Translations under genes and position numbers: made by a program | Source: Deltaproteobacteria bacterium | GTDB lineage: Bacteria; Desulfobacterota; Syntrophia; Syntrophales; UBA2192 | DNA length: 64,000 bases | Direction: 5' to 3' | NCBI GenBank assembly: GCA_012728915.1 | Contig: JAAYEC010000030.1 | Location: 1-64,000, forward strand | Part shown: positions 35,557-46,659 of the stretch, piece by piece | How positions within the stretch are numbered: position 1 is the first letter of the stretch | Layout of the letters: the number at the start of each line of letters is the position of its first letter | The notes under the pieces: generated by a model | The model's input: the letters and a program-made list of their open reading frames with translations, nothing else | Told to the model about the DNA's origin: nothing | Databases searched by the model: none

Positions 35557-35604
35557 GTCCTGGTGGGCCGCACAGGGATCGAACCTGCGACCCGCTGATT
35601 AAGA
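35557..35604. repeat. attL, 48-bp core repeat
   Basis: Identical over 48 bases to 46587-46634. It consists of the tRNA-Lys 3' half, from the anticodon loop to CCA plus three bases. Sequence on either side differs. No full tRNA can form here, so this is the displaced end. Confidence 0.95.
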
Positions 35605-35650
35605 GAGGCGTCAATGAGGTTTCTGCAAGTGGCGGGAATGACGTAAGTAA

Positions 35651-35679
35651 TTGATTTTTTTCAACCTCGCTTATATAAA
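35651..35679 (+). promoter_or_regulatory. Promoter at the left end of the element
   Basis: TTGATT (35651-35656), 17 bases, TATAAA (35674-35679), in AT-rich DNA. It would drive the genes from 35771. A second TATAAA lies at about 35701. Confidence 0.65.
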
Positions 35680-35713
35680 CAATAGAAAGAAAATAGCCGA
35701 TATAAACTATGAC

Positions 35714-35730
35714 TGTCACATTTTGTCACA
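35714..35730. promoter_or_regulatory. Left pair of TGTCACA boxes (candidate integrase arm sites)
   Basis: TGTCACA occurs at 35714-35720 and 35724-35730, exactly one helical turn (10 bp) apart. The same pair occurs at the right end (46496-46512). Tyrosine integrases of phages usually bind such paired arm sites near each end. Confidence 0.6.
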
Positions 35731-35770
35731 AAATCCCCAGACGAAATCTCTCACGTGAAAGGGGGACCTG

Positions 35771-36064
35771 ATGAGCGAAAAGATCACCTCCATTCGATTA
35801 TGCGAAGAAACGACGGGAGAAGAGCGCAGGGTGCAGACTGTAGCCATTGAGAAAAGCGGCGACCTCGTCGTTTACGGTTTGGACTCAGGCCCATTCGTCG
35901 AGAAATATCACGGCGACTGGGACTATGAGTATTGGTTCACAGTTCCTGGGGAGTACAAGGACACCATTCTTCTTCTCCTGCTGAAAGAACGTTTCTCGAG
36001 CTTTTTGGAAGTTGAGGGATGGTTGACGAGCAAGGGGATCAAGTGTCAGCGCGGTTTCATGTAA
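35771..36064 (+). CDS. Unknown small element protein
   Basis: A 97-residue acidic protein with no recognised domain. It is rich in aromatic residues in the middle (HGDWDYEYWFTVPGEYKDTI) and ends in GWLTSKGIKCQRGFM. A GGGGGACCTG stretch precedes the ATG. It is the first gene after attL, in DNA of lower GC than the chromosome, a place where satellites and prophages often carry cargo genes. No signal peptide or membrane segment. Function unknown. Confidence 0.6.
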   Translation: MSEKITSIRLCEETTGEERRVQTVAIEKSGDLVVYGLDSGPFVEKYHGDWDYEYWFTVPGEYKDTILLLLLKERFSSFLEVEGWLTSKGIKCQRGFM

Positions 36065-36074
36065 TAAAGAAATA

Positions 36075-36126
36075 CCGGGGCTAGGGTCGCTCCCGAAAAG
36101 GCGGTATCCTGGCCGCCCTGCCCCGG
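36075..36126 (+). other. Potential branched RNA structure
   Basis: CCGGGGC (36075-36081) pairs with GCCCCGG (36120-36126) and encloses two further hairpins: GGG with CCC around TCGCT, and GGCGG (36100-36104) with CCGCC (36113-36117). It lies between two element genes. There is no U-tract, so a simple terminator is unlikely. Confidence 0.4.
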
Positions 36127-36160
36127 ATCACTCACCAGGCCGCTTCCAGGAGGCGGGATG

Positions 36161-44765: not shown

Positions 44766-44779
44766 GGAGGGTCCTCCTT

Positions 44780-44968
44780 TCAAGGTTTCAATTTGGAAGT
44801 GGTCTTTTTGAGATGCCCTTTTTCCTTCAGCCATTCGATGATAATCATCTCGCTTTGCTGTGAGAGGGTACGGTAGCCCTCGTCGGCTATCTTTTGAAGC
44901 AACTTCTTGACTTCGGAAGAGGTCCGAAACCCGATGTATTCGTCCTTTGCCATGACTTCTTTTTCCAT
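44780..44968 (-). CDS. Ribbon-helix-helix (Arc/MetJ-type) regulator
   Basis: A 62-residue protein (57 from a second ATG at 44953). The sheet strand YIGFRTSSEV, then helices KKLLQKIADEG and LSQQSEMIIIEWLKEKG, match small RHH DNA-binding proteins. A perfect palindrome lies 22 bp upstream of its start and is the likely operator. It is transcribed against the integrase direction and may be the element's repressor or an antitoxin. Confidence 0.7.
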   Translation of the reverse strand: MEKEVMAKDEYIGFRTSSEVKKLLQKIADEGYRTLSQQSEMIIIEWLKEKGHLKKTTSKLKP

Positions 44969-44990
44969 AATTTTACAACCCCATCAATGA

Positions 44991-45013
44991 TATATATTGT
45001 TTGACAATATATA
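44991..45013. promoter_or_regulatory. Perfect palindromic operator between divergent genes
   Basis: TATATATTGT and ACAATATATA form a perfect 10-bp inverted repeat around TTG. On the plus strand TTGACA lies inside it (45001-45006); on the minus strand it is just upstream of the ribbon-helix-helix gene. It is well placed for autoregulation and for control of the divergent genes. Confidence 0.7.
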
Positions 45014-45084
45014 CTACTTGGTGTAAAGAAAAATCAAGGTCAATTTCCCGAACCGCAGGCCATGATACAAAAAGAAGAACGAAA

Positions 45085-45152
45085 GCCTGAGATCCCCACG
45101 GCGGCGACGCCTGGGCGGGCACTTGCGGCCCGGGGAAGATCTCAGGCATTTT
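45085..45152 (+). other. Stem-loop with U-rich tail: attenuator or small RNA
   Basis: GCCTGAGATC (45085-45094) and GATCTCAGGC (45138-45147) form a perfect 10-bp stem, with CCCC/GGGG pairs inside and a GC-rich loop, followed by ATTTTTA. It lies between the operator palindrome and the 69-residue gene, so it could end a short transcript before the integrase genes. Confidence 0.5.
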
Positions 45153-45178
45153 TACTTTCACAGCAAGGAGGTTTGAGC

Positions 45179-45388
45179 ATGGAAAAGCGTTTTGATGTAG
45201 GGGCGGTCATGACGGATCTCACACTGACAAAGGCATCACTGGAAGTCCTGGAGCATATCTGGCAATCGGCAGAGATGGGCACGGAGGACCGTATGCTCGC
45301 GGCTTCGGTCATCACTCTGGATGCAGTCAGGCGAGCCGTCCAGGACATCGAAGGGGTCATGGGAGAACTGAAGGCTTTGGAGGCTTGA
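45179..45388 (+). CDS. Unknown 69-residue element protein
   Basis: MEKRFDVGAVMTDLTLTKASLEVLEH... preceded by a perfect AAGGAGG ribosome site. All-helical, no known family. It lies 26 bp upstream of the integrase gene and is probably cotranscribed with it, so a role in recombination or its control is possible. Confidence 0.65.
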   Translation: MEKRFDVGAVMTDLTLTKASLEVLEHIWQSAEMGTEDRMLAASVITLDAVRRAVQDIEGVMGELKALEA

Positions 45389-45414
45389 AGGGAGGGCCTG
45401 AAAGGAGGTAATTC

Positions 45415-46659
45415 ATGGCAATCAGAAAGCGAGGACAGACCTGGCAGATCGACTACGTCGACCCTGCCGGAAAACGAATCAGGAAGTGCTTCAAGAAGAA
45501 GAAGGAGGCCGAGGCCGAGCTCGCAAAGCGGGTTTCTTTGATCGCGGAGGGCCGTTACCTCGACGTCAAGAAGGACTGCAAGACCACGTTCAAGGAACTC
45601 CTGGACCGCTACGAGGAGAATTTCAAGCATCAGCGGAGCTTCTCTGGGTTCAAAAGAAGCTGTCTAAAGAATTTCCGGGCCTACTTTGGCGAAGAAACCA
45701 GGATCTCCAGCATCCGCTACGTGGATCTTGAAACCTACCAAAACCATCTCCGAGAAAAGCGGACCCCAAGCGATAAGATCCGGGCCACGGCGACGATCAA
45801 CCGGGAATTGTCATGCCTCCGGCACTTGTTCTCGAAGGCCGTCGAGTGGGAGCTAATCGAGAGCAGTCCTTTCCGGCGCGGCCGCTCGCTCATCCTCAAG
45901 GAGAATAACTCACGGCTTCGCTACCTCTCCGAAAATGAAATCTCGAAGCTCCTGGCGGCCTGCCCCGTCCATCTCCGAAACATCGTGATTTGCGCCCTGA
46001 ATACCGGGATGCGCCGCGGCGAGATCCTCGACCTGAAATGGTCGCAGATCCGAGACGGGTTCATTTACCTGCAAAAGACAAAGACCGACGAGCCACGGCA
46101 GATCCCGGTGAATGAAACGCTCAAGGCGGTTTTCCAAGAGATCCGTAAATCGCAACAGATCGGATCCGAGCATGTATTCGTCTACTCGCTGAAAAACAAA
46201 CGCAAGGAAGCGCCGTCACCCCAGGGCTTGAAGGTCATCAACACGATCGTCGGGAATGGCGTGAAGGAGGTGAAAAGGTCCTTCTCGACGGCCCTGAAAA
46301 AGGCAGGGATCGAGAATTTCCGTTTCCACGACCTGCGGCATACCTTCGCGAGCCACATGGTCATGCGCGGCGCAAGCCTGAAAGAGGTCCAGGAGCTCCT
46401 GGGACACAAAACCATGACCATGACGCTCCGGTATGCCCACCTCGGCGAGGAGCACAAGAAAAAGGCCGTCAATCTACTCAATGGGCTCACGGCCATGTCA
46501 CAAAATGTCACAAAATGCGATTTTCCCGCCTCCGACAACCCCGCCAAAGAAAAAGCCGCTTCGCAAGTATGCGAAACGGCTCTTCTTCCTGGTGGGCCGC
46601 ACAGGGATCGAACCTGCGACCCGCTGATTAAGAGTCAGCTGCTCTACCAACTGAGCTAG
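45415..46659 (+). CDS. int: Tyrosine recombinase (phage-type integrase)
   Basis: A 414-residue integrase: N-terminal arm-binding domain (KRGQTWQIDYVDPAGKRIRKCFKKKKEA), core-binding SAM-like domain (about 60-150) and catalytic domain with R200 (TGMRRGE), H305 and R308 (HDLRH), H331 (LGHKT) and Y340 (RYAHL). An AAAGGAGG site precedes the ATG. The last 25 codons run through the att core and the tRNA-Lys gene on the other strand, so the C-terminal tail depends on whether the element is integrated. Confidence 0.95.
   Translation: MAIRKRGQTWQIDYVDPAGKRIRKCFKKKKEAEAELAKRVSLIAEGRYLDVKKDCKTTFKELLDRYEENFKHQRSFSGFKRSCLKNFRAYFGEETRISSIRYVDLETYQNHLREKRTPSDKIRATATINRELSCLRHLFSKAVEWELIESSPFRRGRSLILKENNSRLRYLSENEISKLLAACPVHLRNIVICALNTGMRRGEILDLKWSQIRDGFIYLQKTKTDEPRQIPVNETLKAVFQEIRKSQQIGSEHVFVYSLKNKRKEAPSPQGLKVINTIVGNGVKEVKRSFSTALKKAGIENFRFHDLRHTFASHMVMRGASLKEVQELLGHKTMTMTLRYAHLGEEHKKKAVNLLNGLTAMSQNVTKCDFPASDNPAKEKAASQVCETALLPGGPHRDRTCDPLIKSQLLYQLS
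46496..46512. promoter_or_regulatory. Right pair of TGTCACA boxes (candidate integrase arm sites)
   Basis: TGTCACA at 46496-46502 and 46506-46512, 10 bp apart, 75 bp inside the attR core. It matches the pair near attL in sequence, spacing and orientation. Here it lies within the integrase coding sequence. Confidence 0.6.
46549..46581 (-). terminator. Terminator of the tRNA operon, supplied by the element
   Basis: On the minus strand a 12-bp stem (AGCCGTTTCGCA with TGCGAAGCGGCT, one G-U pair) and 4-base loop are followed by TTTTTC. It starts 9 bp past the CCA end of tRNA-Lys and lies inside the integrase coding region on the other strand. Confidence 0.85.
46587..46634. repeat. attR, 48-bp core repeat within tRNA-Lys
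   Basis: Identical to 35557-35604. It reaches from three bases past the CCA end into the anticodon loop of tRNA-Lys, leaving the tRNA gene complete on this side. Confidence 0.95.

Follow-up and report, generated by a model that had tools for sequence, protein, structure and literature searches.

Does a mobile element that carries both terminase subunits and no capsid gene represent a working phage satellite or the remains of a virus? The question is raised by an 11-kb locus in the 64,000-nucleotide stretch of desulfobacterial DNA analysed here (the window), for which a reading made from the sequence alone had proposed a likely phage satellite bringing its own packaging motor, with a prophage that had lost its structural block as the alternative. 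We consider the element to be an integrative phage satellite with a full packaging motor of its own, consisting of TerS, TerL and a TerL-nuclease-like partner, and without virion proteins, and place the probability of this reading at about three in four (0.77). The recurrence of this layout in at least 15 further elements, inserted at seven different tRNA genes where the target is visible, makes a stable type of phage satellite the probable reading rather than a broken virus.

The integrated element and its genes

The element is enclosed by an exact 48-nt direct repeat (35558–35605 and 46587–46634) and is 11.03 kb long. The sequence-only reading had placed it at 35557–46634; the bounded element is real, with the left repeat beginning one base later, at 35558. 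The right copy lies within the 3′ part of a tRNA-Lys(CTT) gene, which is the target for integration. Window positions 35515–35605 align with the tRNA-Lys site of two genomes of the same genus, G005 (91%) and G004 (88%), both of which have a tRNA-Lys with a terminator matching the sequence just outside the left repeat. Such a match is what an empty site would be expected to look like, and synteny of these genomes with the window is absent for genes further to the left. The GC content is mostly 0.49–0.60 inside the element (with one 1-kb step at 0.66) and mostly 0.62–0.71 in the flanks. An integrase gene with 89% nucleotide identity abuts the same tRNA-Lys in another species (G001:C382 3972–5178; L162), on a contig that stops 68 bases further on; this copy is the integrase of a sister element, the remainder of which is not in the assembly. 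The features of the element are as follows (coordinates, strand, description).

35558–35605, unstranded: left attachment repeat, 48 bp, same as the right copy
35771–36064, +: 97-aa protein, no family
36158–37261, +: 367-aa protein with a weak C-terminal HTH, possible regulator
37344–37568, +: 74-aa protein, no clear family
37537–39315, +: primase/AAA helicase-like replication protein (PHROG 239, E 5e-37; PF13481, PF01807)
39315–39592, +: iteron-like GGTGAACGATT repeats, candidate origin
39801–40040, +: excisionase/AlpA-like HTH_17 protein (PF12728, E 4e-8; PHROG 66, E 1e-4)
40067–40429, +: 120-aa protein, no family
40434–41069, +: 211-aa coiled-coil protein, common to three other loci (L002, L099 and L102)
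41129–41632, +: TerS, small terminase subunit, HTH, assigned by position and by its family beside terL in related loci
41550–43160, +: TerL, large terminase subunit (PHROG 2, E 9e-26), ATPase and nuclease motifs intact
43171–43857, +: conserved gene 3′ of terL, 228 aa, predicted TerL-nuclease-like (RNase H) fold
44013–44237, +: 74-aa protein, no family
44241–44546, +: 101-aa protein of a phage family of unknown function (PHROG 831, E 5e-7)
44553–44834, −: 93-aa protein, no family
44780–44968, −: Arc-like small protein (weak; PHROG 228, E 0.005), candidate repressor
45179–45388, +: 69-aa protein, no family
45415–46659, +: tyrosine integrase, abutting the tRNA (PF00589, E 4e-31; PHROG 1, E 5e-78)
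46587–46634, unstranded: right attachment repeat, within the tRNA-Lys 3′ part
46590–46665, −: tRNA-Lys(CTT), target for integration

The family scans agree with the integrase, excisionase-like gene, primase–helicase with adjacent iterons and pair of terminase subunits that had been read from the sequence, TerS being recognized by position and family. They also bear out the reported lack of virion genes, as PHROG and Pfam scans of the called proteins gave no supported match to portal, protease, capsid, tail or lysis families. A PADLOC scan gave no convincing known defence gene. The replication protein combines a CHC2 zinc finger, Toprim, AAA_25 and a C-terminal HTH. Seven iteron-like GGTGAACGATT sites (0–2 mismatches) lie on the plus strand at 39315–39592 and one further site on the minus strand; over the whole window the pattern is not rarer than chance, and its notable feature is the clustering. 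The 211-aa protein is modelled as a long helical hairpin (pLDDT 79, pTM 0.57). The 101-aa PHROG 831 protein, which had no match in the phage collection, ends C-terminally in KKLLGE and is possibly a leftover or a retained late gene.

The packaging cassette

The terS gene is located directly 5′ of terL and overlaps it by 83 nt. The family scan of TerS gave weak HTH matches only; in most related loci a member of its family immediately precedes terL (27 ORFs matched), and in the first locus set that family was nearly restricted to capsid-less loci. A representative TerS had no match in the phage collection. TerL retains Walker A (K83), Walker B (D182/E183) and the nuclease acids (D364/D416/D515/D518). 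It matches 429 phage records, every one at less than 60% identity, so TerL alone cannot separate a satellite from a phage, and a TerL match by itself was rejected as a satellite marker.

A profile scan with a subset of the TerS alignment, the source of further loci, placed the TerS family also beside TerLs of the PHROG 675, 38 and 3717 types, and some of the loci with this TerS family are phages. The N-terminal TerL segment of the satellites was present in all 13 of the other-family TerLs tested (E 8e-15 to 6e-4) and in one of 46 same-family control TerLs, that of L126, which bears the same TerS. The TerL body appears, from these comparisons, to be exchangeable behind a common N-terminal segment. 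We tentatively suggest, at rather less than even odds, that the satellite family may keep a constant adaptor (TerS, the first ∼28 TerL residues and the nuclease-like partner) and swap the TerL body between terminase families to fit the portals of its helpers. As the start of terL lies within terS, in a different reading frame, the shared segment may simply have travelled with terS, and its role in docking is put forward as a hypothesis. Nine loci (L166, L167, L169, L170, L172, L174, L176, L179 and L181) combine the same TerS and the 228-aa family with another TerL family (PHROG 675 where tested). At L167 (6728–13809) the cassette is followed by proteins of 170, 335 and at least 1853 residues with no portal in between; the two longer ones are without a PHROG match, and the locus may represent either an odd phage or a satellite carrying additional virion genes.

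The third conserved gene, encoding 228 residues, belongs to a family of 37 ORFs that lie directly or closely downstream of TerL in phages and satellites alike. The protein had no significant Pfam or PHROG match and none in the phage collection. Its predicted structure is RNase H-like (pLDDT 85.6, pTM 0.82). In a structure comparison with VIA-align (Foldseek was also run), the top 35 matches are nuclease domains of TerL proteins from phages and herpesviruses (Z from 13.6 down to 10.5), followed by resolvase and RuvC-type folds (Z 9–10). Profile–profile comparison of the family with TerL found no sequence homology, and the link between the two is therefore by fold only. With catalytic positions set by RuvC numbering and their placement taken from the fold match, the first acid column (residue 33) contains Asp or Glu in none of 32 members, the middle acid Asp93 is retained in 24 of 32 and PAxxALG occupies the region of the third acid. 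The modelled protein apparently lacks the first and third of the three catalytic acids, and for this reason is most likely to be a motor subunit with a structural or regulatory role and no cleaving activity. The cassette points to an undescribed third terminase component common to satellites and phages. A member of the 228-aa family also lies directly after the terminase of the Methanosarcina virus MetMV (L184; MK170447.1, 10294–10995). This copy is 52% identical to that of a desulfobacterial phage contig (L012), and the host assignment of MetMV may merit a recheck.

Recurrence of capsid-less loci

TerL relatives were gathered from genomes and from IMG/VR. The same TerL family occurs without capsid genes at 13 other loci: in Desulfogranum marinum (L014), in the Desulfobacterota genomes G064 (L011) and G473, and on ten IMG/VR contigs (L015, L016, L018, L019, L023, L099, L101, L102, L103 and L104). 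In these, TerL is followed by one conserved gene (none was called in L104). Beyond it come unrelated genes, a tRNA or an integrase, in many cases encoded on the opposite strand. No portal was found in the available sequence of the 13 loci, most of which are metagenomic contigs and possibly incomplete. Two more capsid-less loci carry a second TerL family, with an integrase fragment after the cassette in L176 and an integrase before it in L181. Where the site is visible there are seven tRNA targets, namely Lys, Ala(CGC), Arg(TCG), Leu(TAA), Pro(GGG), Gln(CTG) and Leu(GAG), and the integrases and replication genes vary among the loci. The sequence-only reading had proposed searching related genomes for the integrase–primase–TerS–TerL order without capsid genes and at different tRNA sites; both were found, and a structural block at the locus, which it had named as the mark of a decayed prophage, was seen in no related genome.

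The G473 element was compared with G333, a genome of the same genus in which the site is uninterrupted and aligns on both flanks. The overlap between the two flank alignments coincides exactly with the 71-bp att core, which identifies the element as a precise insertion of 12.76 kb. Repeats at both ends were seen in two elements only, those of the window and of G473; searches in L011, L014, L015, L101 and L103 turned up no convincing second copy of att, and no contig-end direct repeats indicating circular satellites were found. Between L099 (tRNA-Leu) and L102 (tRNA-Pro), both of which are capsid-less, dN/dS is 0.06 for TerL, 0.02 for TerS and 0.17 for the third gene. This purifying selection indicates that these copies are under pressure to keep a working motor.

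Phages elsewhere in the TerL tree have a portal downstream of TerL, assigned to PHROG 332, 1216, 156 or 2662 in those tested; the portal-sized ORFs of L012 and L051, two that were tested, had no PHROG match. Capsid-less rows cluster in the tree, with five changes versus a mean of 18.4 after shuffling and none of 500 shuffles as low, under labels that took in some contigs ending soon after TerL. A single capsid-less clade is not rejected (p-AU 0.28, firmly classified rows only). The portal-bearing contig L021 falls within the capsid-less TerL group, with the phages L105 and L106 nearby; more than one transition is therefore possible, and the tree draws no clean line between members with and without capsid genes. 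Also in this group, L095 (2930–4444) has two unknown proteins of 110 and at least 390 residues after its 228-aa family gene, which could be structural.

These results bear differently on the possible origins of the element. Its packaging module derives from a phage, the 101-aa PHROG 831 gene comes after the conserved gene and L021 groups with the capsid-less TerLs, all of which would suit a decayed prophage without its structural, tail and lysis block, in which the integrase, replication and terminase genes survived by chance. Decay would, however, have had to halt at one and the same point in no fewer than 15 other loci, spread over seven tRNA genes where the site can be seen and lying next to differing integrases and replication genes, and to have left the catalytic motifs of TerL intact. 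The main argument against it is the strong purifying selection between capsid-less copies. The alternative offered by the sequence-only reading is thus disfavoured by recurrence and selection, and we regard it as unlikely, with roughly one chance in ten.

Satellites often interfere with their helpers, and TerS and TerL might be kept mainly as decoys that poison helper packaging in defence of the host, with transfer secondary or absent. Given the lack of a convincing match to known defence genes in the PADLOC scan, protection, if any, would fall to the packaging genes or to unknown ones. A decoy would not require the catalytic residues that TerL retains, however, and the integrase, excisionase-like gene and iterons are all present and the many insertion sites show mobility, which makes such an interference island improbable. 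The satellite might also remodel or supplement the particle, with the 211-aa protein setting capsid size and small late genes entering the virion, which would accord with the predicted long helical hairpin of that protein and with its position upstream of terS in four loci. This appears slightly less probable again, as the protein was not found in most family members, helical hairpins are common and the pTM of the model is low.

The satellite reading and known satellites

As a satellite with its own motor, the element would be integrated and repressed until a helper phage, or its infection, induced excision by the integrase and the HTH_17 Xis-like protein. The primase/AAA protein would then replicate the excised circle from the iterons, and the satellite TerS would pick satellite DNA. 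TerL would dock on the portal of a helper procapsid, with the third protein taking part, and pump this DNA into helper heads; release would rely on the tails and lysis functions of the helper, with re-integration at tRNA-Lys in a new cell. We infer this use of a helper, with induction, packaging and transfer, from gene content. A portal-profile search of the host genomes for a helper gave no match, but the profile also missed the portal-sized gene of the G086 phage contig, so the empty result carries no weight.

The element family shares with phage satellites in general the absence of structural genes as a stable, recurring trait, and differs from a complete temperate phage in lacking portal, capsid, tail and lysis genes. 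The element resembles PICIs and SaPIs in its integrase, excisionase-like gene, own replication gene, TerS, site-specific integration and lack of structural genes. PICIs redirect the helper terminase via TerS or Rpp (PMC10690885), which accords with the earlier remark that known Gram-negative PICIs usually have just a small terminase or a redirecting factor; PICIs have at most TerS, whereas the element has a full TerL with intact motifs and the TerL-nuclease-like partner. Both terminase subunits are also found in cf-PICIs, which in addition encode portal, protease, major capsid and connector genes and an HNH (PMC10690885); these head genes are absent from the element. Like P4-like satellites and AH14b, it is integrative, with its own primase and without capsid genes. 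P4 DNA is packaged by the P2 terminase (PMC10690885) and a terminase gene was not found in AH14b (PMC4936722), in contrast to the TerS and TerL of the element; none of the P4 hallmarks sid, psu, delta and epsilon was named in its general PHROG and Pfam scans. PICMI, likewise a small integrative element with a primase and no capsid genes, has no terS, sid or ppi packaging-redirection homologs and is inserted beside fis (PMC10803314), whereas the present element sits at tRNA-Lys and has TerS and TerL. The satellite viruses Mulch and Flayer have TerS and TerL, but encode a portal and major capsid and are missing key replication genes (PMC10690885).

Among integrative marine satellites, VEIMEs and tycheposons include some with packaging genes. 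The literature searched, outside which the main VEIME and tycheposon papers lie, contained no satellite that pairs TerS with TerL while lacking capsid genes, and no satellite from Desulfobacterota; priority over earlier descriptions is not certain. Known satellites take the motor of the helper or bring a motor together with a head, and this lineage brings the motor alone. A motor-only lineage implies that a foreign TerL must function on the portal of another phage, so that motor–portal specificity, a long-standing question in DNA packaging, becomes testable in nature. The cassette can also serve as a marker for locating satellites in Desulfobacterota.

Elsewhere in the window, positions 1–3962 have lower GC, adjoin a tRNA-Leu(TAA) and are probably another island. 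Its ORFs, named by reading without a family scan, include what appears to be a fragment of a type I restriction specificity gene, together with a possible RadC-like gene and a pair resembling AbiEi/AbiEii.
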